A stretch of 39,364 bases of DNA. Source: Candidatus Martarchaeota archaeon (GTDB taxonomy: Archaea > Micrarchaeota > Micrarchaeia > Micrarchaeales > Micrarchaeaceae). Below the pieces are notes generated by a model, which had not been told where the DNA came from, did not search any database, and saw only the letters and a list, made by a program, of their open reading frames with translations. The DNA lies in contig JAMCSF010000001.1 of NCBI GenBank assembly GCA_023380795.1, positions 1-39,364 on the forward strand. The letters run 5' to 3'. Made by a program: the position numbers and the translations under genes. Every line of letters starts with the position of its first letter. Position 1 is the first letter of the stretch. Shown one piece after another: positions 2,440-35,620 of this stretch.

Positions 2440-2493
2440 AAATCAAATTAAAAAAGAAAAAGAAAAGAAAGAAAAGCTGAACTAATCAGCTTT
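2440..2493 (-). terminator. Stem-loop plus T-rich tract at the pilin stop codon
   Basis: Perfect inverted repeat AAAGCTGA-actaa-TCAGCTTT (2473-2493) spanning the stop codon; on the minus strand it is followed by TTTCTTTTCTTTTTCTTTTTT. Confidence 0.6.
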
Positions 2494-9778: not shown

Positions 9779-9882
9779 TTAAACACCTTGTTATTGTTAT
9801 TGCAGGTTAATTAATAAATATTAGCCATATAATAAGATTAACTGCCTTTACTTCATTTGGTCCAAAATACTTCAAAAGGTGC

Positions 9883-10440: not shown

Positions 10441-10444
10441 TTAA

Positions 10445-10783: not shown

Positions 10784-10961
10784 CCAGCGTTTGATCTTTG
10801 CGATGCTCCTGTAGCTTCTGAGGAATTTTTCCATCTAATTTGCCTGCCACCTCCCCAAGCCTCCGGTTATGGCCATGCATTTTTGCATAATGGCACACGC
10901 ATTACAATTGCGCAACAACGAATCATAATGATGGCATGCGCAACGTCAATTGGCTAAACTG

Positions 10962-11528: not shown

Positions 11529-11596
11529 ACAATCACAATGCTTACTATTTTAATTATTTGCCGATTAATAAATATTGCTTGTTAAATGTCTGGTGC

Positions 11597-16904: not shown

Positions 16905-17306
16905 ATGCCTATAGAAACCAAAGCATTGAGTTTAATGAAAATAGTACAGTCACGCGTGTTCAAACTGGTTGTCATGATGCTTCCATTCCTCACGTTTGCT
17001 ACGGTTTCCGCGCAATCGAATACGGTATCAACCTCCCTGCAGGTTACTATAAGCAGCGTCATATGCCCCATATACGTGGCAGTTAACACCGGAATATTCA
17101 TATTGGGATTGACTCTGATGATACTGGGAGGGGCGCTCTATGCGGCTGCTCACGTAATGCCCAGCTCAAGCAAGGGCTCGATACAGGGATACGGCATGAG
17201 CATGATAATAGGCGGGGTTATAGGCGTGATAATAGCCGAGCTTGCCCCATACATACTCGGCCTGCTCACGAGCACGTCATCTACGACTATAACTTCTTAC
17301 TGCTGA
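16905..17306 (+). CDS. VirB2/TrbC-like two-helix pilin subunit
   Basis: Signal-like N-terminus ending FLTFATVSAQ, then VICPIYVAVNTGIFILGLTLMILGGALYAAAHVMPSSSKGSIQGYGMSMIIGGVIGVIIAELAPYILGLL: two TM helices joined by a short polar loop, ahead of VirB6-like genes. Confidence 0.6.
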   Translation: MPIETKALSLMKIVQSRVFKLVVMMLPFLTFATVSAQSNTVSTSLQVTISSVICPIYVAVNTGIFILGLTLMILGGALYAAAHVMPSSSKGSIQGYGMSMIIGGVIGVIIAELAPYILGLLTSTSSTTITSYC

Positions 17307-17350
17307 AGCCAAAAGTGGCTTCGGCATGTTTTCCATTCTTTTTTAACTTC
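17302..17350 (+). terminator. Stem-loop plus T-rich tract overlapping the VirB2-like stop codon
   Basis: GCTGAAGCCA-aaag-TGGCTTCGGC (one G:U) followed by atgTTTTccattcTTTTTTaacttcTTTTTT. Confidence 0.65.
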
Positions 17351-17477
17351 TTTTTTGATTTCGTTCGTTAGTAACGCTTAGCATGCGCAATCCTAGCAAT
17401 ACCGAAATCTATTTATTGTGTTAAACTTCTAATAATTTGGACTTGGGATAATTTGCAATCATAAACATGGTAAAACA

Positions 17478-18212
17478 ATGGCCAACATAATAGAGGTCTC
17501 ATTCAGCACCTACAAAAAGAACCTGAAGCTGATACTGCTTTTCTCAATAGCGTTTATAATCGCACTTCTAATACCTGTGTTCGCTCCATTTCCTACTTAC
17601 AACGATCTCGGCTCAATATTCATAAGGACCGGGAGCATATACATGAACCTCAATTTCATAGACGCGATAATAATAGTTGCCTCTACAATGTTTTCGCTCC
17701 TGTTTCTTAGCTTTGCCATAGTCGCAATAAATGTCATAGTCAAACACAGCCACACGGCGACCAGAATAAGGAAAGAGGTAATAGACGGATTGGAGAAATA
17801 CACCGCAAATGTTTTTGTAGTGCTTCTTCTCTTTACTGCGCTTCTGGTGCTGGTAAGCTTCCTCACCTATTATACAGGGTATTCAGGCATAGCCACGCTC
17901 ATCGCGGCAATAGTGCTCATACCATTCCTGTTCTATGCGCCTACTTCTATAGTTATAGACGACGCTAGGATAATGCGGGCCATCGGGCACAGCCTCGTCT
18001 TCATGAAAAACTACTTCAAGTATTTCCTGCTGTGGGTCCTGGTATCTTTCGTGCTGCTTAGCATTGTTGACTTAATGCCCATAATAGGCTCAGGCTCGTA
18101 TGCTTCTATGTACGCATCTCTTATCATAGACTCTTTCATAGTGCTGCCATTCCTGATAGTGCTGCAAAGCGAATCCTACATAAGGAGATTCAAGATACTG
18201 AGCCATACATGA
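17478..18212 (+). CDS. Polytopic membrane protein of unknown function
   Basis: Multiple hydrophobic helices; lies between the pilin and VirB6-like genes. Confidence 0.65.
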   Translation: MANIIEVSFSTYKKNLKLILLFSIAFIIALLIPVFAPFPTYNDLGSIFIRTGSIYMNLNFIDAIIIVASTMFSLLFLSFAIVAINVIVKHSHTATRIRKEVIDGLEKYTANVFVVLLLFTALLVLVSFLTYYTGYSGIATLIAAIVLIPFLFYAPTSIVIDDARIMRAIGHSLVFMKNYFKYFLLWVLVSFVLLSIVDLMPIIGSGSYASMYASLIIDSFIVLPFLIVLQSESYIRRFKILSHT

Positions 18213-18317
18213 AAAAAGCCCGTATCATTTGCCCCTTTCCAAGCTATCGGTACCAAGGACAACAATACGCATGTGCGGCTGTCACACAACTAAATACTTA
18301 TCCTTGAAAATAATATT

Positions 18318-19607
18318 ATGCGAAATGCTGCACTTTTGCTGTTAGCAATAGCCTTTGTCTCATTGATTGGCTATTCCAACGCATCTAGCAAAAACATAAC
18401 ATGTGCTCTTACGGGTCAGAGCCTGCCAATATCGCAAGCCGGCGTCTGCATAGAAAGCGCTATGCCCTTTGCAATAATCGGCCTTCTTGTCTCATTTGCC
18501 ATGGTCGCCGTAGCGTTTATGTTTGGCAATGTTTTCAACCTTCCGTCGCTTAAGAACTGGTACAAGGGCGAGCTATGGGAGACGACAAAAACCATAATAC
18601 TGATAGCGCTGATTTTCGCGGTCCTGATAATATTGGGGGCTTTGGCCCTCGGCCTCACTGGAAGCAGCATACCTGTTTCCTACATACAAGGATCGCAATC
18701 CGGAATAACGAGCGCAATTGGAGAGAATCTAAACGCACTTTACGCATCCGTATTGGCAAACTACGTGAATCCAGATATGCTGATGGTAAATGAATCCTAT
18801 TATGGTCTGGAAGGATTGGCAACAGGTATCGGAGACCTCAAAAAAACTACAATAAACGAGTGGATACCAATACCTATTCCTTTTGTCGGTTCAATACAGT
18901 TCGGTTCATCCAACGCAGCCCTGCTCGCAAGCTCCGTAATAGAGTCTGACACTGCGCTTCCGGGATTTTCATTCATAAAGGACATAATAAGCATAGTGCT
19001 GATTCCTGTGTATATAGTCTTCAGTGTCCTCAGCGTGGATCTGTATTCTATAGTCATTGCGGGCCTAACGCTATTCATACCTATAGGCATAGTGTTCAGG
19101 GCATTCCCGTTTCTTAGGGGGCTGGGCGGCTCATTCATAGCCATAGGCATAGCAATAGCTCTTGTCTTTCCGGCCTTATTAATCATGTTCAACCTTCCTA
19201 TACAGAACTTCATATTGCCACTTATATTCAGCCAGAGCGCCAGCTATGCCCCGGGGCAGACCTGCAGTTATTTGACTTTCAACTTTTTCGAGGACATAGC
19301 CTGCGGCCCGGCAAGTTTGGCTTTCAGCGTCTCTTCTGGTGTCCTTATAGGTGTGCAAACATCTAACCAAAATTACGCCGGAGTGTTCAACAACGGTCAG
19401 GATTCCGCCCTGGCAACGCTGTTCAACAGCAACGGCGGTTCGATATATCCTTCAATCAACTTTATAAACTTCTACACATATGGAGTTTTGCTGCAATTGA
19501 TACTTTTCATATTCGACATCGTAATAACGATAGTGATTGCGGGCGCCCTCGCACAGATGCTCGGCGGAAAGCTGAGCCTTGGGGTAGGCAAATTCAAGAT
19601 AGCGTGA
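18318..19607 (+). CDS. VirB6/TrbL-like polytopic membrane protein, paralogue 1
   Basis: Polytopic; GIVFRAFPFLRGLGGSFIAIGIAIALVFPALL signature; N-terminal NWYKGELWETTKTIILIALIF. Confidence 0.65.
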   Translation: MRNAALLLLAIAFVSLIGYSNASSKNITCALTGQSLPISQAGVCIESAMPFAIIGLLVSFAMVAVAFMFGNVFNLPSLKNWYKGELWETTKTIILIALIFAVLIILGALALGLTGSSIPVSYIQGSQSGITSAIGENLNALYASVLANYVNPDMLMVNESYYGLEGLATGIGDLKKTTINEWIPIPIPFVGSIQFGSSNAALLASSVIESDTALPGFSFIKDIISIVLIPVYIVFSVLSVDLYSIVIAGLTLFIPIGIVFRAFPFLRGLGGSFIAIGIAIALVFPALLIMFNLPIQNFILPLIFSQSASYAPGQTCSYLTFNFFEDIACGPASLAFSVSSGVLIGVQTSNQNYAGVFNNGQDSALATLFNSNGGSIYPSINFINFYTYGVLLQLILFIFDIVITIVIAGALAQMLGGKLSLGVGKFKIA

Positions 19608-20806
19608 GTATAATGTTCATGTTGGCTGCTACGACAACTGTGACAAACTATTGCCAGCTCTTCGGAGGCCCTGCCTCTCCGTACATAAGCGGCTGGCTTC
19701 CGCTCATGTATCTGGTGGTAGCGCTCGGCTTCCTGATAGTGGCCATATTGTACATGGTTGGCAGGTTCATGCCGCCATCAGTAAGCAGCAGGCTCAGGGA
19801 GGTAACGAAGTCCGAGATTACCCAGATATTCATCGGCGTATTTATAATACTTATACTGCTTTCAATGACCACGGCCGCTTGCGGCTTATCAAGCAGCCTC
19901 GGCTCGCAGGTGCTTGCAAACGCCGGAGTTTCCAATGCCCGCGGGCTCAGCCCATTCCAGTATGCCGATTACTACATAGGAACACTGGCTCTCAACCACG
20001 GAATAAACCTGTTGGGATACATATACTCGACATCAATAGGCTATGCCATAGAGGCCAGGGTTATAACTGTGCTTTCACAGGATTTGGGCTTCAGTACGGG
20101 CGGAGACTCTGTGGTATCATTCGGCATTACCTACGAGCATGACCTTGGGGCCCTTTACGGTGCACTTTCCGACGTTTATTTCGATGCCTTATCCCCAATA
20201 TTGGTAATAACCATAGGCATGCTCTATCTTCAATACCTCGCCTTGCCACTTTTGGAATATACTGCGTTCACCGTGATACTGCCTGTTGCCATATTGATAA
20301 GGCTGATACCATATGGCGGAAACGGCTTAAAATCTGCATCAAATGCTGTGCTTGCCATAGCAATAGCCGCGTATATCATATACCCGCTGATGATAGCTTT
20401 CGATAGCTATATTGTCTATTGGATATACAGCCCGGCACTGAATCCGGCATACGGCTGCACCAACTGCCTGAACACCGCGTATACGCTGCCAAGCCTTCCG
20501 TCTTCATCCTTCCTAAGCACAAGCGTGGCAAGCAGCAGCAGTAATGCCCTTGGCAGTATAACCGGCGCCCTCGGCGTATCCGCACCTGCTGCCAACAACG
20601 TGCTTTCGTCTTCGTTCTATTCGTCGCTTTCTATAAATCCCGAGCCTCCTGCCGCATACATAACGCAGCAGATGTCGCAGTTCATATTCGTTGCGGTATT
20701 TCTTTTCGGACTTAACCTTGCGGTTACCATCGGATTTGCGATGGGGCTTGCAAGAGGGCTCAACTTAGGCATAGAAGGGTCTGTATCATTCTGGGAGGGC
20801 TTATGA
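19604..20806 (+). CDS. VirB6/TrbL-like polytopic membrane protein, paralogue 2
   Basis: Polytopic; divergent signature PVAILIRLIPYGGNGLKSASNAVLAIAIAAYIIYPLM; start overlaps previous stop. Confidence 0.6.
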   Translation: MSIMFMLAATTTVTNYCQLFGGPASPYISGWLPLMYLVVALGFLIVAILYMVGRFMPPSVSSRLREVTKSEITQIFIGVFIILILLSMTTAACGLSSSLGSQVLANAGVSNARGLSPFQYADYYIGTLALNHGINLLGYIYSTSIGYAIEARVITVLSQDLGFSTGGDSVVSFGITYEHDLGALYGALSDVYFDALSPILVITIGMLYLQYLALPLLEYTAFTVILPVAILIRLIPYGGNGLKSASNAVLAIAIAAYIIYPLMIAFDSYIVYWIYSPALNPAYGCTNCLNTAYTLPSLPSSSFLSTSVASSSSNALGSITGALGVSAPAANNVLSSSFYSSLSINPEPPAAYITQQMSQFIFVAVFLFGLNLAVTIGFAMGLARGLNLGIEGSVSFWEGL

Positions 20807-22311
20807 TGGATCTATCGCTATTGCTTCCTGTCCTTCAAATTACTAGCTACAGCTCCATATCGACTGAGATGTTTCCCATAATATCGATAGCAGTATTCAT
20901 AGACGCGGTAATTGTCGCTCTGTGGTATTTCGCCGGAGCCGTGCTCAACAATAACAAGGTAAAATCTACTGCCATGGGCGAATTCTATCAGGTTTTCGGC
21001 ACTGCGCTTCTGGTAGTCGTCCTTGCCGGAATACTGGTGATCTTCGCAAATACTTTCTATTCCGCTACGTCGTCCACGTCGCTAATGTCTCCATCTGCAA
21101 TATTCAACATGTGCAAGGGCATAAACTCGACGTCGATGCTTACTCTTCTAAATTCTTCCATGTCGCCTACAGGGTCATCGCTGCTTTATTCTTCAAGCTC
21201 CAGCGGTTTTCCTGGCCTGTGCGCGCTGGTAAACAAAAACAACAAGCAGACGTTTACTGAGAAAATTGACTATCCGCTTGCTGCTACTGGGGTCATAATA
21301 GCCAACGTTACGAACCAGACAGCAACAAACCTGAATTCGTTCTTCATATTCGATTCATACGTCGGCTTCCTGGAAAAGCTATCGCCATCGTTAGACCTAT
21401 GCATATCTCCTGGGGATCCACCGTCTCCAGTAATACCAGAATGCCTGCTTCCGTTGCCATATCCTCCCGAGCTGCTGATACACTATTCAATTACTCCGTT
21501 CGCTGGATACTCGCTGATATACAAATCATTGGCCGCTCTGGGGGACCTTCTTACTGCGGCTCTGGAATCATTCATCGCCCAGCTGACGCTTCTGTCCATA
21601 TTCCTATATGCATGGCCCTATATGCTGTTTGCCGGGATAATACTAAGGGCGACCCCATTCACAAGGAAAATAGGCGGGTTGCTGCTTGCGATAGCTGTGG
21701 CAGGCGTGATATTCTTCCCTCTGATATTTTCAATAGAATACCTTTCGCTGGCTAACGGCCTTGGCCCATCCTTGGGATACACGCCTTCCTCCACTGGCCT
21801 TTTCGGCATAGTGACTCCTAACTCATATTCTGCAAACGACATAGGCAACTATTACGGATTCGGGAACTTATTCACGAACAGCACGTACTTCATTCCAAAC
21901 AGCACTGGGGAACCGTATGTGACAAATTTTTACGTAATGCCTAGCATAAAAACAATAGCAATATTCGGAGGCGCCTGGCCGCACAATGGAAATCTTTTTG
22001 AGACGGAGCAGAGCGATACGCAGTATCTTCTGGTGCCTTACGCAAATGGGGGGGCCATATTTCATTCCATAATGGCGTTTGCTGACCATAATCCTACTCC
22101 TCCAATCGGCACTTTCGGAATCTCATACGCCTTCAACAGGTCCCAAGCTCTAAACACAAACTACATGATGGCTAGGTCTTACGGCGTATTTGGGATAAGC
22201 GCGTACTTCCTTCCAATAATAAACCTAATAATAGTTCTAACTGCAATAATCGGGGTGTCTGGCCTGCTTGGGGGCGACACATCCCTTGCGGGCTTGTCGA
22301 GGTTGGTATGA
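20803..22311 (+). CDS. VirB6/TrbL-like polytopic membrane protein, paralogue 3
   Basis: GIILRATPFTRKIGGLLLAIAVAGVIFFPLIF; ATGATG overlap with previous stop. Confidence 0.65.
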   Translation: MMDLSLLLPVLQITSYSSISTEMFPIISIAVFIDAVIVALWYFAGAVLNNNKVKSTAMGEFYQVFGTALLVVVLAGILVIFANTFYSATSSTSLMSPSAIFNMCKGINSTSMLTLLNSSMSPTGSSLLYSSSSSGFPGLCALVNKNNKQTFTEKIDYPLAATGVIIANVTNQTATNLNSFFIFDSYVGFLEKLSPSLDLCISPGDPPSPVIPECLLPLPYPPELLIHYSITPFAGYSLIYKSLAALGDLLTAALESFIAQLTLLSIFLYAWPYMLFAGIILRATPFTRKIGGLLLAIAVAGVIFFPLIFSIEYLSLANGLGPSLGYTPSSTGLFGIVTPNSYSANDIGNYYGFGNLFTNSTYFIPNSTGEPYVTNFYVMPSIKTIAIFGGAWPHNGNLFETEQSDTQYLLVPYANGGAIFHSIMAFADHNPTPPIGTFGISYAFNRSQALNTNYMMARSYGVFGISAYFLPIINLIIVLTAIIGVSGLLGGDTSLAGLSRLV

Positions 22312-23417
22312 TGGCAACTGGAAAATTGATGGTGGCTTCCAGGGACATGCAGGTACTGGCATTGCTATTGCTTATTTTGGTGGTTCTCCCTTCATCTGCC
22401 CATGCGAGCTCTTCAAGCGTGGCCTCTACGTTCTGCATAGGAACCCAAAATGCCCCTGGAATAATACCTCCGTCTACCGAAATAACCACCGGCAATGCCC
22501 TTTCAAGCGGGGTTTTCACAATATCCATATCTATACTCGCGCTTATCTTCGCCATAGTGGGAATGGCGTGGGCCATAGGGTATGCCCTCGGGATAAACCT
22601 GCTTGTCAATTTTTCAAAAACCGAAATAGGCGAGATAGCAATATCGCTAATAATACTTCTGGTCCTGCTTGGCACTATGGCCACCATAACCGGCGGCACA
22701 TCTCCAGGAAGAATCTTCTCCAATTATAATTTCTACGGGATTTTCAGTAATGACTGCTATATTATGACGCTTACCGCGCTGAATACGACTTCAGATTTCA
22801 GGTCTCTCACGATAATACAGGACTACTACAGCCTCATTTCGCATACTACAGTAACTGTGGCTCCAAACTATTTCGGTTTCTCATTCATGCCATATATCGG
22901 GCTAACGGTAGTAAACCAGATAATAAAAATGATGATGGAATTCACCGGCATAATAATAGCGTTGTTTTTCGGCCTCTCGGTTTTTTTGGCTATAATATAC
23001 GGCCTGTTTCCGATATTCCTCTATATCGGGATTGTATTGAGGACCATACCATGGACGCGTGCGGCTGGCGGGGCATTCATCGGGCTTTTTATAGGGTTTT
23101 ACATATTGCTTCCGCTTCTGCTAGGCTTCGTAACTACTGTATCATTCTCAAACGTTCCAGTTGCTACGTTCGATACCTCGATATTCAGCCTTTCGTCGTT
23201 CTCCGGGAACCCTATATCAAGCCTTTCGTACCTTGTCAGCTTCATAAGCGGAAACATTCTTATCAATTTTATAGAAGGCGTCGTTGCGCCTAGCATATAT
23301 GTAATAATCGGGGTCGTGATATCAATAATGCTTTCGCTTGACTTCGCCGAAACTATGGGGGATTATCTTGGAGCGCCTAGCCTTTCAAGCGGGCATGCGC
23401 TCAAGGGTCTGGTGTAA
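22308..23417 (+). CDS. VirB6/TrbL-like polytopic membrane protein, paralogue 4
   Basis: GIVLRTIPWTRAAGGAFIGLFIGFYILLPLLL; ATGATG overlap with previous stop. Confidence 0.65.
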   Translation: MMATGKLMVASRDMQVLALLLLILVVLPSSAHASSSSVASTFCIGTQNAPGIIPPSTEITTGNALSSGVFTISISILALIFAIVGMAWAIGYALGINLLVNFSKTEIGEIAISLIILLVLLGTMATITGGTSPGRIFSNYNFYGIFSNDCYIMTLTALNTTSDFRSLTIIQDYYSLISHTTVTVAPNYFGFSFMPYIGLTVVNQIIKMMMEFTGIIIALFFGLSVFLAIIYGLFPIFLYIGIVLRTIPWTRAAGGAFIGLFIGFYILLPLLLGFVTTVSFSNVPVATFDTSIFSLSSFSGNPISSLSYLVSFISGNILINFIEGVVAPSIYVIIGVVISIMLSLDFAETMGDYLGAPSLSSGHALKGLV

Positions 23418-23419
23418 CA

Positions 23420-24529
23420 ATGAAAATCAAGATGCTTGCGGCCATTGTGCTTTTCCTGGTAGCGCTAGCCCCGTTTGCTGGCGCTTCCGGAGCAGGCCCC
23501 GGTGCACTTGCCCTTAACGGCCTGCAGGCATACACGGCATCGCATTCAGAGATACTGGCCCAGATAAAAGCATCTCCGACGATGCTTACTAGCATAACTC
23601 CTCCAGTGGTTAGCATGGGCCTTGCGATAATTGTTGTCCTTGTAGTGATAACAATCTCTGCATTTATCTACATAATCGCGAGCGTGATTAACAGTTCCAA
23701 TGCCAAAAACTGGGCGAAGATACAGGTATACGAAGCCCTGCTTTCCATAATGCTGCTGCTTATATTCCTTGGCCTTTTCTACCTGTTTCTGATAAATCCT
23801 TCGCCATACTATAATTCAGTGGGATTGCTTCCAAGCGAGTGCAGCACTCCGAGCATAAACACCCTATTCAACCTGTCAGCATGCGACATAGGCACATTTT
23901 CCAACAACGCGCTCGGGTATTTTGACCTAGTTTCATTAATAGGCGTAGCCTCTGGTTCATCTCCTGGAATCAAATTCGGTTTTGAACCTATCGAAGGATT
24001 TGGGGTATCATCCCAACTTACGAGCGTCATGCCTGACGGGCTTGAAGGCATGCTGGGCTCCGGTCTCTCAGCCCTCATATTCTTCTTGGTACTAAACAAC
24101 CTGCAGCTAATACTGGTATCCGGATCGATACTGTTCCTTACATTCTTCATAACGCTAGGGGTGTTCGCAAGGCTCTTCGGCATAACTAGGACATTCGGCG
24201 GCGCAATGATAGCTTTCGGCCTGGGACTAGGGGTGATATACCCTCTCCTGATAAGCATAACCTACGGGTTCATAGATGCGAACATGATATCTGCTACAGG
24301 AGCCTTCGCGCTTCTTCCATCGGCGATAGTAGACTTTATATCATTCACATACGCGAATGCGATACCTCTGTTGCCCAGTCAGCTTATACTGGGTCTCGGG
24401 TACGCAATAGCAGGCCTGACATTCATACCTTTCATAAACTTCATAATACTTGACGCTTTCATAGTAGATTTTTCGAAATCCATAGGCGAAAAGGTAAGTT
24501 TTATGGCTTTGCTGTCAAATTTCATATAG
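23420..24529 (+). CDS. VirB6/TrbL-like polytopic membrane protein, paralogue 5
   Basis: GVFARLFGITRTFGGAMIAFGLGLGVIYPLLI; AKNWAKIQVYEALLSIMLLLIF. Confidence 0.65.
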   Translation: MKIKMLAAIVLFLVALAPFAGASGAGPGALALNGLQAYTASHSEILAQIKASPTMLTSITPPVVSMGLAIIVVLVVITISAFIYIIASVINSSNAKNWAKIQVYEALLSIMLLLIFLGLFYLFLINPSPYYNSVGLLPSECSTPSINTLFNLSACDIGTFSNNALGYFDLVSLIGVASGSSPGIKFGFEPIEGFGVSSQLTSVMPDGLEGMLGSGLSALIFFLVLNNLQLILVSGSILFLTFFITLGVFARLFGITRTFGGAMIAFGLGLGVIYPLLISITYGFIDANMISATGAFALLPSAIVDFISFTYANAIPLLPSQLILGLGYAIAGLTFIPFINFIILDAFIVDFSKSIGEKVSFMALLSNFI

Positions 24530-26206
24530 GTGCAGGTTTTGGAAAACTACAAGAAAATAACTGCGTTTGCCCTGTGCACGGTAATCATAGCGCTTGCGCT
24601 CGCCTATGCATCATTCCACATTCCACTTGCCGCCAATCAGCAAACAAGTGCGTATTCCGGCAATCTCTTGCCAAAATATTCATACGCTGGTCTTTCCTAC
24701 GCTGCGCCAAGCGCAATTGCCTCTTCGTTAACGTTACCAAACATCTGTGACGAATGCGGGACCGAAGTTACGTGCCAGACAGGCCAAAAATGCCAGCGAA
24801 TCGGTATTTGCAGCAATGGCCAGCCAGCTAATTCATGTGTAGGAATTTCTCAGTCCACGTGTGGGGGGCTCAATTACGGCACATGCCCTATCGGATACGT
24901 CTGCGAAGCCAACACATGCACAATCTCGAGAAATATTGTGTGCAAGCCCTCTTACTCCTGCGTTAAATCACCCAATACCTCTACGTCAACGTCCACTACT
25001 TCCACATCCACAACCACAACCTCAACTTCCACCACCTCCACTGCATTTTATTCCTGCGATGAATGTTTCCCGGTGACTAAAGGGGATTCATGCCCTTCTA
25101 GCTGCAAGTTCCAAAGCAGCGGCCCAACCAACGGCTGTCCCTCGGGATACATCGCTTGCTCGCCCTCTTCAACGCCCCCCAAGATAAAGTGCGGCTTCCT
25201 GCCTCCGAGCCTTGCAACGAGCCTTGGCTCGGACGAGCCATGGTATTGCCCTATAAACCAATCGCTGTACTTGTCCTGGCAGAAAGACATACCTGTAGCA
25301 TTAATAGTCGTCATGATAGCCTTCCTAATAGCCGGCGGCATATTCATGGTTGGTGCCGGAATCAAAAACAACAGGATACGCAACTTCGGGATAGGCGAAC
25401 TATACGAGGCAGTGGCAAGTGCCATAATAGTGGCATTTTTCGTCTATCTTAGCGCAGTGATATTCGGCCTTATTCCGGGGGTTTTCGTCGGTGCAATAAA
25501 TCCCTACGCCACTTCTTTGCACCTTATAACAACAACAATAAACTCGGCTGAGAACGTATACACCGGCCTGTTTCATGCTTACGATTATGACATGTATCTA
25601 AGCACTCTTTCGGTAGACTTAAGCGTGCCTTCGGTGCCACAGCTCAACATCACAGGCACTGTGGTAAAATATGCGCTGCTTCCTCTTGACATATATTTTA
25701 TAGAGCCTACCGCGGTGGTATCGGGCTTCATATATGACGGGATACTGGCGCTGTACGCAGAATATTACCTGATAGTATTTTTCGCAATCGCCTCGATACC
25801 TGTTTTTCTGATACCTGGCGTCATATTAAGGGTCCTCCTTCCCACGAGGTCGCTCGGGGGCATACTAATAGCCCTTGCTGCCGGGTTCTATTTTGTAATG
25901 CCCCTTCTATTTGCGGTTGCCTTCTATTTCACTGCTCCGCATATTACCACACAAATGAACAACATTGCGACTTTGCTCAATGGGTACAGCATAGGCAAAG
26001 GCGCAGTCAATAACGCCGTTACGCCTTCAAGCCCTCTCGTACTTACTCTTTCGGCCCTAAACAGCTCCATGAACGGCTTCTGGCTGCTGATACTGTTCTA
26101 TCCTGCACTAATAAGCGCAGTAACGTACGCTTTCGTCGTGCAACTTGCGAATTTCATAGGCGGCGCCGCCCGCATGAGCGGCAGGGCGCGCGCCAAGTTC
26201 ATATAA
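24530..26206 (+). CDS. VirB6/TrbL-like polytopic membrane protein, paralogue 6, with Cys-rich and Thr/Ser-rich ectodomain
   Basis: GVILRVLLPTRSLGGILIALAAGFYFVMPLLF; N-terminal CDECGTEVTCQTGQKCQRIGICSNG... and STSTSTTSTSTTTTSTSTTST; GTG start. Confidence 0.65.
   Translation: MQVLENYKKITAFALCTVIIALALAYASFHIPLAANQQTSAYSGNLLPKYSYAGLSYAAPSAIASSLTLPNICDECGTEVTCQTGQKCQRIGICSNGQPANSCVGISQSTCGGLNYGTCPIGYVCEANTCTISRNIVCKPSYSCVKSPNTSTSTSTTSTSTTTTSTSTTSTAFYSCDECFPVTKGDSCPSSCKFQSSGPTNGCPSGYIACSPSSTPPKIKCGFLPPSLATSLGSDEPWYCPINQSLYLSWQKDIPVALIVVMIAFLIAGGIFMVGAGIKNNRIRNFGIGELYEAVASAIIVAFFVYLSAVIFGLIPGVFVGAINPYATSLHLITTTINSAENVYTGLFHAYDYDMYLSTLSVDLSVPSVPQLNITGTVVKYALLPLDIYFIEPTAVVSGFIYDGILALYAEYYLIVFFAIASIPVFLIPGVILRVLLPTRSLGGILIALAAGFYFVMPLLFAVAFYFTAPHITTQMNNIATLLNGYSIGKGAVNNAVTPSSPLVLTLSALNSSMNGFWLLILFYPALISAVTYAFVVQLANFIGGAARMSGRARAKFI
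24974..25045 (+). repeat. Thr/Ser-rich low-complexity coding tract
   Basis: Encodes NTSTSTSTTSTSTTTTSTSTTSTA. Confidence 0.85.
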
Positions 26207-26230
26207 GCAATGAAAATACGCGCTGTGAAT

Positions 26231-26252
26231 ATATAGGTAAAATATAGGTAAA
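26231..26252. repeat. Perfect 11-bp tandem duplication upstream of the 26288 ORF
   Basis: ATATAGGTAAA ATATAGGTAAA. Confidence 0.9.
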
Positions 26253-26287
26253 TTTATTAACCTTTAAAGCAATATGGTAGTGATTCG

Positions 26288-27121
26288 ATGGCAAGTTACC
26301 TGGGAATTTTCGTAGGTTTAATCCTAGCATCCGCGGTGCTTATGGGCATAGTGATGTTTGTCCCGTCGCTGCTTCTTCCTTCATACATAAAAATAATACT
26401 ATTCTTTATTTCGCTCGTATTGGACGCTATGGCATTTACCTCTAGGTATTACGCATACCTGATTGGGCCGCTGCTTAAGCACAGGAAGAAGCATGTGATA
26501 CTCAGCAACGAGAATCCGTACTGGCTAGCACAGTCCGGAGACACGATACTTCGCAAATCCGGGGAAAATTTTATCGCTACGGTCTACATATCAATACCGC
26601 TGTACAGGTCAGCCACAGAAATGGAAGACGACGAAAAGCTGGACTTTTCGCAGCAAATAAGCAGGCTTGTCGGCCTCTCAAAAAATCCCGTTAGGTATAC
26701 TTCTGAGCTCTACGTGATGAACAAGGACTCCTACATACAGAAGCTCAAGGAAAAGATAACAATGACTGAAAACGAGGAGGCAGACCTCCAGTCAAAAGAC
26801 GCTACTAAGAGCGAACTGGACAGGGTTCGCGGCAAGCTGGCCATGTGGCGCAACATGCTTGACAGCATAGGCAAGGGCTTTTCCTTCGAGCTAAGCACAT
26901 ATATGACGGTTTCTGCAGCCGGTGCCAAGGAATACGAAGCGTCGAGCCTGGCCCAGCAGAAAGCCAAGGAGCTGATGTCAGGAGTAGGGTCCATATTCGG
27001 CGTCCCGCCAAGCATAATAACCGGGGCAGACCTGCTCAGGTTTGTCGAGCCGGAATACCTGCTGCCGATTTCGACTGTGACAGAGCAGATAAGCAAGAAC
27101 ATACAGGAACAGGTGATATGA
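26288..27121 (+). CDS. Membrane-anchored protein resembling PrgI plus VirB4/TraC N-terminal domain, copy 1
   Basis: Two N-terminal TM helices, then ILSNENPYWLAQSGDTILRKSGENFIATVYISIPLY and a long soluble domain with charged helix. Confidence 0.5.
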   Translation: MASYLGIFVGLILASAVLMGIVMFVPSLLLPSYIKIILFFISLVLDAMAFTSRYYAYLIGPLLKHRKKHVILSNENPYWLAQSGDTILRKSGENFIATVYISIPLYRSATEMEDDEKLDFSQQISRLVGLSKNPVRYTSELYVMNKDSYIQKLKEKITMTENEEADLQSKDATKSELDRVRGKLAMWRNMLDSIGKGFSFELSTYMTVSAAGAKEYEASSLAQQKAKELMSGVGSIFGVPPSIITGADLLRFVEPEYLLPISTVTEQISKNIQEQVI

Positions 27122-27951
27122 TGGACGAAACAAAGCTCGTATTTTTCCTTTTTTCGCTCATGATAGTGCTCTTCGGATTTCTGGCATTGCATGAGCTTGG
27201 CAAGGGAATACTATATTACGTAGGTGCGCTGCTGCTGCTTATCGCCACAGTTTTCATACTTGCGATGAATTGGATAGACGCAAAGCTTTTCTCTGCAATA
27301 ACCTCGATACTTGGAATAACCTTTCAGCCTGCGAAGGATTACACGATCAACAAGCAACAGAACTCCGTCATAAAGGAAGTTAACGGGATATTCTATGCAA
27401 CAGGCTATATCACCGCCAACCTCTTCGCCTATACTTTCAAGGAAGAAGCCGCCCCGGAAGATGACGAAGAGAAGATGATAAGCGCGCCGGAGCTATGGGA
27501 GCGCATAGTGATGAACATAAACTTCCCTTTCAAGTTCCATGTCCTTGCTTCAGGCCTTGACGTCCAGAACATAAGGGACGAGCTGGAGGGCAAGCGCTCG
27601 TATCAGGAATTTCAGCTGTCTAGGGCAATGCAGAACAATTCTAACGAGGTCACCTTAACTGACATAAGGAGGAAAATGAACATGATACAGGCCAAGATAA
27701 ACAGGATATCCCAGGGCGAAAAGCCGATAGCAACAGTGATGTACGTAGAAACGACGGCAATAGGCGTAAGCGAGAAGGCAGCCCTCGATGCGCTTGACGC
27801 GCAGGTAAACCAATTAAGGCTGTCTTTTAGCTCCATGGACGTAGAGACATCCAGGATAATAGGCCGCGAGCTTTATTCGCTTTTCAACTTCAATTTCTCG
27901 CTTCCCACAGGGCTGAATGAGCTTTCGGCAATGTTCGATAACCAGAGCTGA
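27118..27951 (+). CDS. Membrane-anchored protein resembling PrgI plus VirB4/TraC N-terminal domain, copy 2
   Basis: Two N-terminal TM helices; YTINKQQNSVIKEVNGIFYATGYITANLFAYTFKEEA; ...RISQGEKPIATVMYVETTAIGVSEKAALDALDAQVNQLRLSFSSMDVE; ATGATG overlap with previous ORF. Confidence 0.5.
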   Translation: MMDETKLVFFLFSLMIVLFGFLALHELGKGILYYVGALLLLIATVFILAMNWIDAKLFSAITSILGITFQPAKDYTINKQQNSVIKEVNGIFYATGYITANLFAYTFKEEAAPEDDEEKMISAPELWERIVMNINFPFKFHVLASGLDVQNIRDELEGKRSYQEFQLSRAMQNNSNEVTLTDIRRKMNMIQAKINRISQGEKPIATVMYVETTAIGVSEKAALDALDAQVNQLRLSFSSMDVETSRIIGRELYSLFNFNFSLPTGLNELSAMFDNQS

Positions 27952-27961
27952 GGTAGTAAAA

Positions 27962-29479
27962 ATGAGCATACTGAAATTGCAGAATATAATGAGCAACGAG
28001 GTAGGCAAAAGGGCCTTCCTTTCGAGGCCACCTGAGCCGCCGGCAAACATACTGATAAACGACCCGTTTCAGGCAATATTCATAGGCAACACCAAGCTTT
28101 TCAAGGTTCCGTTCAGCTGGTCGTTCACCAACCTTACGAACCCGCACATAGCGGTTGTGGGCATAACCGGGGCAGGAAAGAGCTACTTTGTCAAGACATT
28201 CCTGATAAGGGCCAGCTATATATGGAACACCAATGCCGTGATAATAGACTGGGCTGCCGAATACAGGGCGTGGGTCAAGCAAAGCGATGGCATAATAGTA
28301 TCGCTGGGCAAGGGCGACTATCTAAACATAATGGACCTTTCTGGCATGAAGCCGCTTGACAGGGTAAAGCAGATACTTTCCTCATTCGAGATACTTACCG
28401 ACATAGCGTCGTATCCAGAGCAGCGCAGGCTTACCGAGGAAGCCATAGAGCAATCGTACACAAATGCCGGTTTTGTCCTTGCTGAGCCTGCGCCGGAGAA
28501 CAAGGAAGCGCCGACGCTAAAGGACGCAATATCAATTCTCGAGGAGCAGCTGCAGGAGGGCACTTACGAGTACCCTGCCGAGCTCGAAAATGCAATATAC
28601 AGGCTAAGGCAGTTCGCACGCGAGGGCGAGGACTTCTTCGCAAGGAAGAGCACGGTCAACCTCGAAAAGCTCGCGAACTCCGGTCTTGTCGACATAGACC
28701 TGTCAGGCCTTCCCGACGAGAGGTTCAGGGCGCTTGCCGCCCTTTTCATACTGCAGACGCTCAAGGAGCGCATGCGCTTCGAGGGCTGGAACGAGGCAAA
28801 AGGGCTTAAGACTCTCGTGGTCCTTGACGAGGCATGGAAGATAGCCGGGGACGAGAAGAGCGACGCCGTCATGATAGTGAGGGAGGGCAGAAAATACCAG
28901 TTCGGCCTCATAGTCGCATCGCAGAATCCTACAGACATAAACGAAGCAATATTTTCCAATGTTGGCACAACTTTCATATTAAGGATAAGGTTCGAAAAGT
29001 TCCTTGATTACATACAGGGATCCATAAACTTCTCGGATTTCATACGTTCAGAAATAGCCAAGTTCGGGGTCGGGCAGGCCGCGGTCAACATGGCATTCCA
29101 GACTTCGCTGCGCTTCCCTGAGATATTCGTTCTTGACAGGGTGCGTGGAGAGGAGCCACTGTACGTGTATACCCTGGACATAACCGACATACTGACGCAG
29201 AGCGAGCTTTCTGCCGGCGTAATACAGAAAGACTATCAGTTTGAGGAAGAGGAGCTCAAGAACAAGTTCATAGAATACAACGTAAGCACCGAAGCCATAA
29301 ACTCCATATTCAAGGTCCTCAACGACCAGAACAGGTCTTCGAAGATACTGGACTTCATACGCCTTCTTATGTCAAACGGCATAACTACAGAGGACGTAGT
29401 CCAGTTTCTCAAGAACCTGAGCATAGAGGACCTTCTTATAACAAGGATAATGTCGTCAGTGGGTGCCGTGAATGGCTAA
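27962..29479 (+). CDS. VirB4/HerA-like P-loop ATPase
   Basis: Walker A HIAVVGITGAGKSYFVKTF; Walker B LKTLVVLDEAWKIAGDEKS; FGLIVASQNPTDINEAIFSNVGTTFILRI. Confidence 0.85.
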   Translation: MSILKLQNIMSNEVGKRAFLSRPPEPPANILINDPFQAIFIGNTKLFKVPFSWSFTNLTNPHIAVVGITGAGKSYFVKTFLIRASYIWNTNAVIIDWAAEYRAWVKQSDGIIVSLGKGDYLNIMDLSGMKPLDRVKQILSSFEILTDIASYPEQRRLTEEAIEQSYTNAGFVLAEPAPENKEAPTLKDAISILEEQLQEGTYEYPAELENAIYRLRQFAREGEDFFARKSTVNLEKLANSGLVDIDLSGLPDERFRALAALFILQTLKERMRFEGWNEAKGLKTLVVLDEAWKIAGDEKSDAVMIVREGRKYQFGLIVASQNPTDINEAIFSNVGTTFILRIRFEKFLDYIQGSINFSDFIRSEIAKFGVGQAAVNMAFQTSLRFPEIFVLDRVRGEEPLYVYTLDITDILTQSELSAGVIQKDYQFEEEELKNKFIEYNVSTEAINSIFKVLNDQNRSSKILDFIRLLMSNGITTEDVVQFLKNLSIEDLLITRIMSSVGAVNG

Positions 29480-29777
29480 GGACACATTTACGATAAGCAG
29501 GCAGGAGCTGAGGCGCATACTTACCATATACAAAGTGGACGAATCAAGCATGGCTAAGCTCTTCTCCGACATGGAGAAAGCCCACAGGCACGTCAACGCC
29601 ATAGCGTTTGCAGGGATGCTTGAGAAGATAAACCTCAAGAGGGACGCAATCGTAAATGTGCTGAGGAGGCTTGGCATGGATGACGTAACGATAAACAGCA
29701 CCATAGACAGCATGGATGAGCAGAAGCTTCTTGCCGAATCAGGGAGGATTTTCGAGGCTACAATCAATTTTGGCTGA
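29472..29777 (+). CDS. Small helical protein of unknown function
   Basis: 101-aa ORF overlapping the ATPase stop by 8 nt, same operon. Confidence 0.55.
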   Translation: MAKDTFTISRQELRRILTIYKVDESSMAKLFSDMEKAHRHVNAIAFAGMLEKINLKRDAIVNVLRRLGMDDVTINSTIDSMDEQKLLAESGRIFEATINFG

Positions 29778-29782
29778 TTGCG

Positions 29783-30163
29783 ATGAAGAAGGAGACAAGA
29801 TGCATAATATGCGGCAAGGAGCTCAACGGGCTTGAAGTGAAAGAAGACAATGTAATAAGGGCTATGCGCTGGTTCAAGCGCAACGTTACCCACAACGAGA
29901 AGAACTACAGGCTCGTAGTGTGCAAGGATTGCTACGTGAAATACAAAAAAGCCAGGGATTCGTACAACTCAAAAACCGTGTCATACCTTGCCATAGGGGT
30001 CATATTTGCAGCGCTGCTCATAATAACCGGGAGAAGCTTAGGCGCTCTTGCGGCAGGCATCGCAATAATAATACTCATGTACGCCCTGTCACTGCTAAGC
30101 TACATGCCTGGCCTTAAGCAGCAGGCCAAGGGTGCATCCAAAAGCACAGGGCAAGAAATATAA
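29783..30163 (+). CDS. Zinc-ribbon-like protein with C-terminal TM helices
   Basis: CIICGKELNGLEV...VVCKDCYVKYKKA (two CxxC) and hydrophobic helices YLAIGVIFAALLIIT..., LGALAAGIAIIILMYALSLL. Confidence 0.65.
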   Translation: MKKETRCIICGKELNGLEVKEDNVIRAMRWFKRNVTHNEKNYRLVVCKDCYVKYKKARDSYNSKTVSYLAIGVIFAALLIITGRSLGALAAGIAIIILMYALSLLSYMPGLKQQAKGASKSTGQEI

Positions 30164-30208
30164 GAATAAACTTTTAATTTATGTTGTAGATAACCCAATG
30201 GTCTTCCG

Positions 30209-30938
30209 ATGGCTGAAACAGGATTGATAGAACCGAAAATAGCAGAGTTTTCGCTCAAGGCCACATTAACTGGCGATTTCCCCAGCATAGCCCAAAGGTT
30301 TTCGACGCTGCAGATGTTCTCCGTCAAGCTCGAGCAGGACAACAGCCTGGTTCTGCTAAGCGTGGAGAGCAGGGACATGCAAAAAAAATCCATTCCTTTT
30401 CTTCATAATAACGCTAAAGCCCGATTCCATAGAAGTGCAGTATTCCATAGCCCTGGACACGAGCGAAAAGATGAGGAAGCTGTACGTCGTGAAGAACCTG
30501 CTCGGCGTGCTTTCGCTTATAACAGACCTGTACTATGCCGATCCTGCCGGATTATACCAGTATGTCGACTCAACAATAGACGATGTCCTGGGCTCGCTCT
30601 CGCAGAATTACAGTGCACTGTTCAACAATTACGATTCCTTATTCAACGAATACAGGGAGCTCAAGCGCCTCAACATAGAGCTCACGGCTTCGAACAAGAA
30701 CCTCACTGTGCAGGCCACGCAGGCGGTTTCTGAGAACAGGGAGCTCAAGGAAAGGCTAAAGCAGCTGGAGACTTATTCGGATGAATCGCTCATGGTAATG
30801 CTCGAGGACTGGATAGACGCGCACAACAGCACAATTGACATAATTGAATTCTCAAAATCATACAAGATACCTGCGCCGAGGATAGAGCAGATGCTCAACA
30901 AGATGGTCACCACGGGCTACATAGAGCTCAAGGGTTAA
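30209..30938 (+). pseudogene. Beta-rich plus coiled-coil plus C-terminal winged-helix-like protein, interrupted by a frameshift at an A8 run
   Basis: ORF 30209-30733 and ORF 30435-30938 join sensibly if one A is removed in 30381-30388: ...SVESRDMQ|KKNPFLFFIITLKPDSIEVQYSIALDTSEKMRKLYVVKNLL... Confidence 0.65.
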
Positions 30939-30941
30939 ACT

Positions 30942-31076
30942 ATGAAATACATAGCCAGGGTTAACAAGCGTGTAAGGTACATAAGGGTCTACGAGATAGT
31001 GAAGCGAGCCGGCCCAAAACAGAACTTCCTTTCGCGCCTTTTCATCAAGGCGCTTACCAAGAAAGAGGAAAAATGA
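30942..31076 (+). CDS. Small basic protein, 44 aa (not in ORF track)
   Basis: MKYIARVNKRVRYIRVYEIVKRAGPKQNFLSRLFIKALTKKEEK, starting right after the preceding stop. Confidence 0.45.
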   Translation: MKYIARVNKRVRYIRVYEIVKRAGPKQNFLSRLFIKALTKKEEK

Positions 31077-31089
31077 CGGTGCATCAACA

Positions 31090-33444
31090 TTGGCAAATTT
31101 CAAAAAACTTGTGATAGTCATTGCCGCAATATTCATCATTGCGATGGTAGCCAGCGGCATATACCTCTCATCGGAGCTAAGCCACATAAAGATAACTCCG
31201 CCAGCGCCGCCAGTTGTGCTTCCAACCTCGCTAAGCGCGTATGTGAGCTATCAGGCCCTGCTTGACAGCAATGAGTCGCAGTTCGTCATCCCGTACGCGG
31301 AAATCTCATATTCTGCTTCAAACCTTACAAAACTCTACATGAACGTGTCCATCCTAAAATCAAAATTCCCTGCAAAGTTGTACGTGCTTAACGCATCGCA
31401 GTCGGGGTGCGTAAACTGCGGAGATTTCCAGGCTTTCGCCGACGGCGTTCAATCTGACCTAGCGCCCTATGGGCTCACCTCGGAAGTGGGAAACCTTACA
31501 GTCATAAACGAATCAGCTATACCTACAATTTCAAACAACTCAATCCTTATAATACCAAACGGGCTAATGCCGCAGGCCATGCTAAGCAATTACGGCCAGG
31601 GAAACATGACTCTTATGCACTACCTTCTGGACAAGGGCACCAGCATAATATACATAGGGCAGACATTCTCCAGGGTGGTGCTGCAGAACGGGGTGATAGT
31701 GCCTAACTCCCGCATACCTTATTACATGCTTACAACGTCTCCTGCATCATCAAACAGCACATTCACATTCGACAACCCTACGTTCTCGTTTTCAAGCGGG
31801 CGTAGCTACGGGGACATATCATACGTAAACGCTTTCAACGGCAGCATAGTCGCCTTTTCAAACTACCTCGATTCATGGACGTCTCCCTCTTCGGCCTCGG
31901 AAGACATGGCCAAAGCGATTTCTATCGCCTTCTGGCTTCCACGTTATGCACATGGGCTAGAAACGATCGCGCTAAATGCATCCAAAACAGAGTCAGGCTC
32001 GGCTGGAATAACGATGCCGATCCCGAAGATAAATTATACTGCCCAGAATGCCGCAGCCGTTGGGTCAGGATGGCTTTACGCTGAAATATATACTAATGCC
32101 AGCTATAGCTATTCCGACAAATCAATATACCGATACATAAGCGAGCCATTCAGCTACACAAGCAGCGGCACTGTTTCGCTGCCTTCGGCGGTTGTACTCG
32201 GCAGCTCACAGTCTATAACGATGCAGATATACACGCATTCGAGCGTTCCGATACAGATACAGCCCCACCTTTCGATATATACCGAGAACATGGTCAAGGT
32301 TTCAACCATACCTTTATCTTCCATATCCGCAACCGGAAATTTCACATTTGTAAAGCTAATAAAATCCTCATTCGTCCCCGGAAGCTATATAATCCAGCTC
32401 AAGGGCTTTTCCGACAACCTCTATGCCAGCGCTCTCTTCAGCGTGCCTTCGGTAAACGTTACTGAAACATATTCCAACTATACCTCAAACTCATTCAGTT
32501 TCTACGTAAGCTCCGATGGCGCACCGCTTACTGGGCTTGGCTATACGATGACGCTTAATGGCAAATACCCACTGAATGGAACGCTGACAAACGGCACGAT
32601 AGCTTATTCGCTTCCTAAGGGCATAGGCGAGCAGTTCGGAAAGCTGAATTTCACTGCAAAGATTCTCTCGCAAAAATTCTCCTATGTGGCAAGCAATCCC
32701 GCCCCAGTAATAAAGATAACTTCGAAGGACATAGCGCTGATAGTCGTGGTGGTGCTGATGCTGCTTATGGTTACGATGGTGAGGGCGCCAAACAGGGATG
32801 ATTTCTTCATAGACGTGCCGCACATGCCGAAACAGCAGCGCACATTTATAGACCTGAATGCCCAGGAAGTGATGCAGGTTTTCCAGAAGCTCAACACGTA
32901 CTACCATTGGCGCTATATGCCTTTGTCGATAAGCGAGTTCAAGCTTGCAATAGCCAGCAATATAAGGTATAACGGGATTCCGGTCAATCTAACTCCTTCA
33001 AACGTCGAAGTGCTTCTGGACCAGCTAATTGCAAACGGTCTGGTCGTATCGGCCGATGACATGTATGCCCCAAAGAGTTGGATAGACGAGAGCAAGCACG
33101 ACATAGAGTACTTGACGGTGTTCAAGAAGCTCAGGATATACATGGTAACGCATGCCTATGTTTTCACCGATCTCGACACCAGCCAGACGGCAGACATGAA
33201 TGTGGTGGTTGGCGGCGAGAGGCACAATGTAGTGATATACGCGCCCTCGAGCAAATTCAAGAACATCCCAGTGAACGCCAATTCCAAGACATTCATCGCG
33301 TTCATGAACGACGACAGGCTCGAAGACTTCAAGGACCGCTTATATTCGGTTTCAGATGCAGGCGCTGAGCAGCTCAAACTATACATATCTGCAGGATACG
33401 TAAAACTTATATCCATGGAGAATCCGGCAAACATATTCGATTGA
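31090..33444 (+). CDS. Large two-helix membrane protein: extracytoplasmic beta-rich domain with CxxC, and cytoplasmic winged-helix-like C-terminus
   Basis: N-terminal TM LVIVIAAIFIIAMVASGIYL; QSGCVNCGDFQAF; second TM IALIVVVVLMLLMVTMV; C-terminal soluble domain with LTPSNVEVLLDQLIANGLVVSADDMY; TTG start. Confidence 0.65.
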   Translation: MANFKKLVIVIAAIFIIAMVASGIYLSSELSHIKITPPAPPVVLPTSLSAYVSYQALLDSNESQFVIPYAEISYSASNLTKLYMNVSILKSKFPAKLYVLNASQSGCVNCGDFQAFADGVQSDLAPYGLTSEVGNLTVINESAIPTISNNSILIIPNGLMPQAMLSNYGQGNMTLMHYLLDKGTSIIYIGQTFSRVVLQNGVIVPNSRIPYYMLTTSPASSNSTFTFDNPTFSFSSGRSYGDISYVNAFNGSIVAFSNYLDSWTSPSSASEDMAKAISIAFWLPRYAHGLETIALNASKTESGSAGITMPIPKINYTAQNAAAVGSGWLYAEIYTNASYSYSDKSIYRYISEPFSYTSSGTVSLPSAVVLGSSQSITMQIYTHSSVPIQIQPHLSIYTENMVKVSTIPLSSISATGNFTFVKLIKSSFVPGSYIIQLKGFSDNLYASALFSVPSVNVTETYSNYTSNSFSFYVSSDGAPLTGLGYTMTLNGKYPLNGTLTNGTIAYSLPKGIGEQFGKLNFTAKILSQKFSYVASNPAPVIKITSKDIALIVVVVLMLLMVTMVRAPNRDDFFIDVPHMPKQQRTFIDLNAQEVMQVFQKLNTYYHWRYMPLSISEFKLAIASNIRYNGIPVNLTPSNVEVLLDQLIANGLVVSADDMYAPKSWIDESKHDIEYLTVFKKLRIYMVTHAYVFTDLDTSQTADMNVVVGGERHNVVIYAPSSKFKNIPVNANSKTFIAFMNDDRLEDFKDRLYSVSDAGAEQLKLYISAGYVKLISMENPANIFD

Positions 33445-35097: not shown

Positions 35098-35116
35098 GCA
35101 AGCACCTAAAATTTGG

Positions 35117-35620
35117 CTAAGGCCTGTGTTTCCTGTGCGAGGCTTCCATCTTCGTGTAAGCCAGCCTATGCGAGCTGCCCTTCATTATCGTGAGCGCGGC
35201 GGCCTCGGCCTCTTCTATTGCTTCCGAGCTGCCTATGAAACTCACTGTATCGCCATAAACCGCTATCACGGCCCCGCTGACGCTCTCCATATACCTTTTG
35301 GCTTTGCCCTTGCTGCCTATGAGCCTTGATTTCATGTTCCTTATCCTGTTCTTGTTTCCGGTTATGTCCCGCATGCTTATGCTCGAAAAGTAATACCCGT
35401 CCTTGAGCAGCAGCTCGGCAATCCTCATTCCGAACCCCCTTCCGTAAGCCTGAATGACCTCTCTTGCCATGTATTCGCCGTAGCCGTCTCCTTCTATGCT
35501 TATGCAGTTCGGCTCATTTAAGCTTATATCGCAGCCGCACAGCTCTCCCAGCCTTTTAAGCATTCCAGGCTTCTGCTTGAGCATTTTGCTCCTCTCCTGT
35601 GGTATGTATATCTCTTCCAT
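35117..35620 (-). CDS. KH-domain RNA-binding protein (Pno1/Dim2-like)
   Basis: IYIPQERSKMLKQKPGMLKRLGELCGCDISLNEPNCISIEG...AYGRGFGMRIAELLLKDGYYFSSISMRDITGNKNRIRNMKSRLIGSKGKAKRYMESVSGAVIAVYGDTVSFIG. Confidence 0.88.
   Translation of the reverse strand: MEEIYIPQERSKMLKQKPGMLKRLGELCGCDISLNEPNCISIEGDGYGEYMAREVIQAYGRGFGMRIAELLLKDGYYFSSISMRDITGNKNRIRNMKSRLIGSKGKAKRYMESVSGAVIAVYGDTVSFIGSSEAIEEAEAAALTIMKGSSHRLAYTKMEASHRKHRP

Follow-up and report, generated by a model that had tools for sequence, protein, structure and literature searches.

Ced, Ted and a related locus in Micrarchaeota

The closest described relatives of the locus analysed here are two systems domesticated from conjugation machinery in Crenarchaeota, namely Ced of the Sulfolobales (CedA, CedA1, CedB, CedD and CedE) and Ted of the Thermoproteales (TedA, TedB and TedC). 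Ced is chromosomal and combines a pilin, a VirB6-like pore and a VirB4/HerA-like motor with no coupling protein; Ted has the same three-part core, with one VirB6 and one VirB4 per system, and neither includes a relaxase (PMC9905601). In Sulfolobales, the N-domains of CedB and CedD jointly cover the N-domain of VirB4 (PMC11868833). Here we describe a gene cluster at 16905-33444 of a 39,364-base window (the whole stretch of DNA that was analysed) from a Ca. Micrarchaeum-type assembly of 658 kb that is about 72% complete. Homology identifies in it a conjugative-type pilin, VirB6/CedA-type membrane proteins and VirB4-type motor parts. We lean towards reading the locus as a chromosomal type IV secretion-like machine related to Ced and Ted, with a six-paralogue pore and a split motor, and, less surely, as an importer of single-stranded DNA. 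Our search of the literature found no description of this Micrarchaeota system.

The locus shares with Ced and Ted a VirB2-like pilin, a VirB6-like pore protein and a VirB4-class ATPase, the last two at scores below the family cut-offs. Its parts match the CedA, CedB and CedD profiles, it resembles Ced in having no recognised relaxase or coupling protein, and its pilin carries a cleavable-looking leader like that of TedC (PMC9905601). Whereas Ced spreads its N-domains over two ATPases, here they appear to be detached altogether from a single ATPase; fusion of the ATPase to all or part of the VirB4 N-terminal domain, as in Ced and Ted, was looked for and found absent. Six VirB6 paralogues stand in place of the one or two of Ced, the CedA and CedB matches stay below their family cut-offs, and an immunoglobulin (Ig)-like surface protein and small conserved proteins are linked in addition, in other organisms; the neighbours of Ted genes also differ from those found here. 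Because the ATPase has no fused N-domain, the pore paralogues number six and the scores fall below cut-offs, the sequence comparisons place the machine as a relative and variant of Ced/Ted rather than a member.

More distant type IV secretion systems (T4SS) share single traits. In the Trw system of R388 (TrwK/VirB4, TrwI/VirB6, TrwL/VirB2), TrwK is matched by the predicted fold of one locus protein, T1, and TrwL weakly by the pilin profile; unlike Trw, in which VirB6 is homopentameric, the Micrarchaeota locus has no recognised outer-membrane or stalk components, VirD4 or relaxase. The rvh T4SS of Rickettsia, also a host-dependent lineage, has strongly diverged VirB6 paralogues (PMC2653234), but these number five, within a full Gram-negative T4SS with VirD4 and of unrelated origin. 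The MPF-FATA-like T4SS of Patescibacteria are chromosomal, mostly relaxase-free, very common in a host-dependent ultrasmall phylum and equipped with VirB2-like pilins (PMC12102498); they are bacterial, and the part of that source drawn on here notes no comparable six-VirB6 array or split VirB4.

The original prediction had called the locus a streamlined, divergent Ced/T4SS-like machine. Each likeness that it named was recovered by an independent profile or fold search; "streamlined" does not suit a pore set expanded from one to six VirB6 proteins. All open reading frames lie where it had placed them, all on the + strand, with neighbouring genes, the polytopic ones included, mostly sharing 4-base overlaps or nearly abutting. 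In order, the features are as follows.

16905-17306, +: VirB2/CedA1/TedC-like pilin, 133 amino acids (TrbC PF04956, T4SS_pilin PF18895 and TrwL matches)
17478-18212, +: six-transmembrane protein, 244 amino acids; conserved neighbour in families f1 and f2, not VirB6-like, membership doubtful
18318-19607, +: VirB6-like protein, array position 1 (position profiles, conserved order)
19604-20806, +: VirB6-like protein, array position 2 (position profiles, conserved order)
20803-22311, +: VirB6-like protein, array position 3 (profile-profile comparison); largest extracellular insert in many relatives
22308-23417, +: VirB6-like protein, array position 4, closest to CedA (NCBIfam Ced_CedA, E=1.5e-5)
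23420-24529, +: VirB6-like protein, array position 5 (position profiles, conserved order)
24530-26206, +: VirB6-like protein, array position 6 (hhalign to position 4); N-terminal Cys-rich insert in this genus
26288-27121, +: T1, two transmembrane helices and a predicted VirB4 N-terminal-domain-like fold, without ATPase domain (Foldseek)
27118-27951, +: T2, T1 paralogue (hhalign E=5.8e-24)
27962-29479, +: VirB4/CedD/CedB/HerA-class ATPase, 505 amino acids (Walker A GITGAGKS; profile matches)
29472-29777, +: s101, small soluble helical protein, 101 amino acids, kept in the operon
29783-30163, +: s126, small zinc-ribbon-like (CxxC...CxxC) protein with two transmembrane helices, 126 amino acids, kept in the operon
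30209-30938, +: coiled-coil and winged-helix-like protein, in two frames in the window
31090-33444, +: 784-amino-acid surface protein, kept in the operon (fold search)

The six-gene VirB6-like array

Genome comparisons were made within the phylum Micrarchaeota, where many genomes are drafts, and wider comparisons through profile libraries. The match of array position 4 to the CedA model extends to 8/28 of its orthologues (best 2.6e-7), staying below the family's curated cut-off of 330 bits. In a six-frame search of 29 whole genomes the model gave 11 matches, one each in 11 genomes; nine fall within main-locus VirB6 arrays, and the remaining two are on array-bearing contigs (G124 C5 and G138 C48), while Sulfolobus alone was matched among 14 control genomes. 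The expected VirB6 likeness of the array is thus borne out by a match that is array-specific genome-wide. Profiles of all six positions match each other, position 4 pairing with position 6 at E=2.4e-25 and with position 3 at E=4.7e-23. When single window proteins were searched against Pfam and NCBIfam, T1, T2 and all but one of the six VirB6-like proteins had no match (position 5 lay outside the NCBIfam scan), and hmmsearch of VirB6 profiles against PDB sequences gave no match; the identities of all these proteins needed family alignments and fold search. Structures were predicted for T1 and the 784-amino-acid protein, and the VirB6 readings rest on sequence profiles. A run of six consecutive polytopic VirB6-like proteins, as first described, holds for 18318-26206; the 244-amino-acid membrane protein upstream (17478-18212) is not VirB6-like. 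It is probably a neighbour rather than a machine part: loci L049 and L050 keep the same gene order without it, and a protein of its type lies apart from the arrays in locus L139.

VirB6 genes were counted across all collected loci with 12 position profiles. Six were found in 51 locus entries (one duplicate pair, L033/L052, included), and lower counts occurred only in arrays cut by a contig or locus end, apart from the single VirB6 of minimal loci. In other families the arrays lie apart from the ATPase, often two per genome, and 20 such arrays hold exactly six VirB6-like genes each. When distant and near arrays were compared by profile, positions 1, 2, 3 and 6 were clearly self-best, 4 and 5 less clearly. 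Three arrays outside the training set (L050, L123 and L145) had positions 1-6 assigned in order (18/18). A six-gene prediction fixed beforehand was applied to eleven further arrays, three of which (L153-L155) belong to the same genomes as L050, L049 and L048: all ten uncut arrays had six genes in the order 1-6, and the eleventh was cut by a contig end. A seventh weak match in L154 and L155 (20-22 bits) was a short protein, in L154 the 193-amino-acid pilin reading frame. The number of VirB6 genes per uncut array is six, or one in minimal loci. Since six genes in the order 1-6 recur in all uncut arrays, the comparisons indicate an old array that is passed down whole and whose gene number is constrained. 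In loci L126-L143 (families f3-f21), each genome has two separate six-gene arrays, neither of them linked to the ATPase; several second arrays adjoin giant one-transmembrane proteins of 1000-1730 amino acids, possibly adhesins.

Candidatus Micrarchaeum A_DKE, of the same genus as the window, whose ATPase is 99% identical to that of the window and whose complete chromosome is public, has a minimal second locus (L125; G002:C1, about 611-614 kb; 8982-12240, minus strand) consisting of a pilin, one VirB6, a T2-like protein and a small ATPase of 364 amino acids; similarly short ATPases occur in many relatives. Family f24 carries this single-VirB6 kind of set only (L106 and L107). In the ATPase tree, the f24 copies group with the second copy type found in other families, the one that accompanies a single VirB6, and the A_DKE copy stands aside on a very long branch. 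On the strength of these minimal loci and the tree, the six-VirB6 machine seems to have been elaborated from a Ced-like core.

We tentatively propose, with slightly less than even confidence, that most Micrarchaeota build their pore as an obligate mixed ring containing each of the six VirB6 proteins once, and that the ATPase is held by separate VirB4 N-domain subunits. The idea draws on six-membered hetero-rings elsewhere in biology; we know of no symmetry-broken VirB6 pore in any T4SS. Instead of sharing one ring, each of the six proteins may assemble into a homo-oligomer of its own and act as an alternative or stage-specific subunit, for instance with different partners or at different envelope depths. 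This is a strong contender, to which we also give somewhat under an even chance: known VirB6 assemblies are homopentameric (PMC12857230), the six proteins differ strongly in their extracellular inserts, and genomes of other families hold two arrays. Were they dispensable alternatives, however, their number should vary, whereas six occur in fixed order in all complete arrays, even motor-unlinked and duplicated ones.

Motor, pilin and flanking genes

The window ATPase matches CedD (1e-18), a VirB4 family (VirB4 CD1110; 5.8e-18), CedB (1.9e-16) and HerA (6e-15), and the CedD, CedB and VirB4-type models match 30/30 ATPase orthologues, in keeping with the VirB4/HerA-like ATPase first proposed; the orthologue profile matched the VirB4 ATPase domain and HerA in the PDB. 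As no match reaches an equivalog cut-off, and HerA cut-offs lie far above, the profiles point to a relative of CedB and HerA that is neither of the two. A VirB4 N-terminal domain is missing from it, Walker A lying at about residue 67, and a longer reading frame starting at 27917 overlaps the neighbouring gene.

The two membrane-tethered soluble-domain proteins recognised originally are present as T1 and T2, and can now be given an apparent identity as relatives of the VirB4 N-terminal domain. Each has two N-terminal hydrophobic segments. That they correspond to this domain was suspected before the fold search. The AlphaFold2 model of T1 (predicted local distance difference test 76) combines a pair of membrane helices with an alpha/beta domain, and against 350,542 PDB chains Foldseek placed R388 TrwK/VirB4 at all of ranks 1-9 (probability 0.89-1.00); it is the specificity of this match that carries the assignment. 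In the genomes compared, nearly every ATPase copy, whether in a main or a second locus, is immediately preceded by a T1/T2-type gene, and some other families have just one N-domain type. Because T1 and T2 are paralogues and the predicted T1 fold matches the VirB4 N-terminal domain, these data support a VirB4 that is split into separate genes, its N-domain on the membrane-anchored T1/T2 and an ATPase-only protein beside them.

The pilin (16905-17306) has a hydrophobic leader ending ...VSAQ, followed by two hydrophobic helices with a basic loop. Its predicted VirB2 likeness agrees with matches to TrbC/VirB2 (9/18 orthologues, best 2.5e-4) and T4SS_pilin (7/18, best 2.8e-5), the two commonest Pfam families among the 18. 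Against the PDB, the pilin profile matched TrwL of R388 weakly, at E=0.025 and rank eight, behind chance matches; the best-ranked, calcium-channel gamma subunits, were judged a chance likeness of two-helix stretches. Most orthologues have a conserved cysteine before helix 1 and another near the C-terminus, and these two nearly invariant residues could close the pilin by a disulfide. A separate small protein at 2486-2989 (-) begins like a typical archaeal type IV pilin (QKAQSAMEYLMTYGWAILIIAIVLAALFSLG) and is distinct from the T4SS-like pilin.

Downstream of the ATPase, the coiled-coil gene (30209-30938) is frame-shifted in this assembly and a single 242-amino-acid frame in most close relatives, and the split may be either a sequencing error or a real frameshift. 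The predicted structure of the 784-amino-acid protein comprises an N-terminal transmembrane helix, an ectodomain (~45-540), a second transmembrane helix (~540-562) and a cytosolic domain of ~190 amino acids; its top fold matches are Ig/macroglobulin-type sandwiches only. Elsewhere in the window, a carbamoyltransferase-like protein beside a polytopic glycosyltransferase-like pair (13136-16597, -) possibly modifies surface polysaccharide. A topoisomerase VI B subunit and a KH protein (33454-35620, -) are convergent to the locus and kept as neighbours within the order. A low-complexity reading frame with long Val-Asp repeats (37684-38067, -) is probably the opposite strand of a repeat tract. The window has no transfer RNA and no Rfam match.

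Distribution, cargo and rival explanations

The VirB4-class ATPase profile matches 251/301 Micrarchaeota genomes, 89/96 of the best quality and 104/126 genera, and an ATPase orthologue of at least 63% identity is present in nearly all of 60 relatives; the machine is thus close to universal in a phylum of tiny archaea, many of them dependent on a host. In the neighbourhoods read, the full order from the pilin through the 784-amino-acid protein is kept across two families of the order; G149, from a further family (locus L123), has the same gene set; and G031 has the array, the T1/T2 pair and the ATPase at three places on one genome-sized contig, with every part retained. Given this recurrence of gene order in the family, the order and one further family, together with the ATPase counts, the locus is far beyond a chance arrangement of reading frames; the possibility raised at the outset, that relatives would keep no synteny, did not come about. 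A plasmid search returned only distant VirB4/HerA/TraC relatives, and the machine is chromosomal, not plasmid-borne, and widely conserved in Micrarchaeota. The idea that L048-L050 belong to another phylum was dropped, the taxonomy label Microcaldota being applied also to Micrarchaeum itself.

The absence of a recognised relaxase and VirD4, already remarked from the locus, largely extends to whole genomes. No relaxase of PF03432, the sole relaxase family searched, was found in 25 genomes (0/25); 24/25 had no coupling protein of PF02534 (VirD4/TraG-type), and G124 gave one doubtful short match. ComEC (PF03772) had no convincing match in 28 genomes, the one hit at E=9.6e-4 being below the cut-off and interrupted by an internal stop. 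Among the locus proteins, no family matches to the VirB7/9/10 outer complex, VirB8 or VirB11 were seen (no genome-wide search was made), nor was a NurA partner recognised.

We propose that the ATPase would form a hexamer held at the membrane by T1/T2, that a single ring or pore would be built from the six VirB6 proteins with a seat for each, and that the pilin would polymerise on it into a lipid-lined pilus, with the Ig-like protein serving surface contact or envelope anchoring. Less surely, the cargo would be single-stranded DNA that is taken up from adjacent cells, either kin or the Thermoplasmatales host, and used for recombination, and purine-lacking lineages might also draw nucleotides from it; Ca. 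Mancarchaeum Mia14 has neither purine nor pyrimidine synthesis (PMC5498576). Import of DNA from neighbouring or host cells appears the likeliest function, since pore and motor are most closely related to DNA importers and no relaxase, convincing coupling protein or ComEC was found; effector export is the main rival.

Several points weigh against this proposal. Cargo and direction are carried over from Ced/Ted, and the convergent topoisomerase VI B gene, a housekeeping gene, is the sole tightly linked DNA-processing gene. For PurD, half of 28 genomes have no match and about twelve a strong one, and those sampled carry the machine either way, so nucleotide hunger alone would not suffice for its retention. 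The match of T1 to TrwK is local (Foldseek E=3.6e-3, template-modelling score about 0.3, root-mean-square deviation 12 A), and no sequence profile ties T1 or T2 to VirB4, hmmsearch against PDB sequences included. Known VirB6 rings are homopentamers (PMC12857230), and a mixed six-seat ring would therefore be a departure, put forward as a hypothesis.

Under the rival function, the same machine would export proteins, effectors or adhesins, into or onto a host cell, which we consider rather unlikely. The search results for relaxase and coupling protein fit this reading too. Chromosomal VirB4 systems of host-dependent Patescibacteria (PMC12102498) and nanohaloarchaea (PMC10266531) are thought to serve host contact, the host-dependent Rickettsia has five VirB6 duplicates (PMC2653234), and giant one-transmembrane proteins adjoin several second arrays. 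Yet in profile searches both pore and motor come closest to the Ced DNA importers, protein-secreting T4SS normally employ a VirD4-type coupling protein, of which none here is convincing, and the machine also occurs in larger, purine-synthesising genomes that are maybe less host-dependent.

It is highly improbable that an unrelated membrane transporter merely adjoins a HerA-type DNA repair helicase. The HerA score of the ATPase is indeed almost as good as its others, and the membrane proteins are not covered by any Pfam T4SS model; these genomes, however, have a separate, longer HerA-type ATPase, the CedA-specific and TrbC matches speak against this reading, and even minimal loci keep a conserved pair of T1/T2-type gene and ATPase next to a pilin and a single VirB6. 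T4SS parts usually sit on plasmids or integrative and conjugative elements, but a recently domesticated or still mobile conjugative element is the least probable source and was rejected, given near-universal chromosomal presence (251/301), flanking topoisomerase VI B and KH genes kept within the order, 0/25 relaxases and a base composition indistinguishable from the flanking DNA.

Earlier work bears on cell contact in these archaea. For Mia14, type IV pili and secretion genes have been listed and an exchange of DNA speculated on, with no mention of this system by name; the same paper describes Ca. Mancarchaeum with type IV pili as a suspected route (PMC5498576). Microscopy has shown pili-like contacts between ARMAN and Thermoplasmatales cells (as reported in PMC5498576 and PMC5864196), and a co-culture of Ca. 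Micrarchaeum harzensis with Ca. Scheffleriplasma hospitalis exists (PMC8975820). The locus described here offers a near-universal and specific candidate machine for how DPANN archaea take from, or act on, partner cells. The rule of one or six VirB6 genes bears on how VirB6 forms a channel, and the apparently split motor would show which parts of VirB4 are separable. Our analysis widens the concept of domesticated conjugation systems, known from Crenarchaeota, to include a DPANN phylum; if the mixed ring is real, the machine would be a core cell-contact organelle of that phylum.

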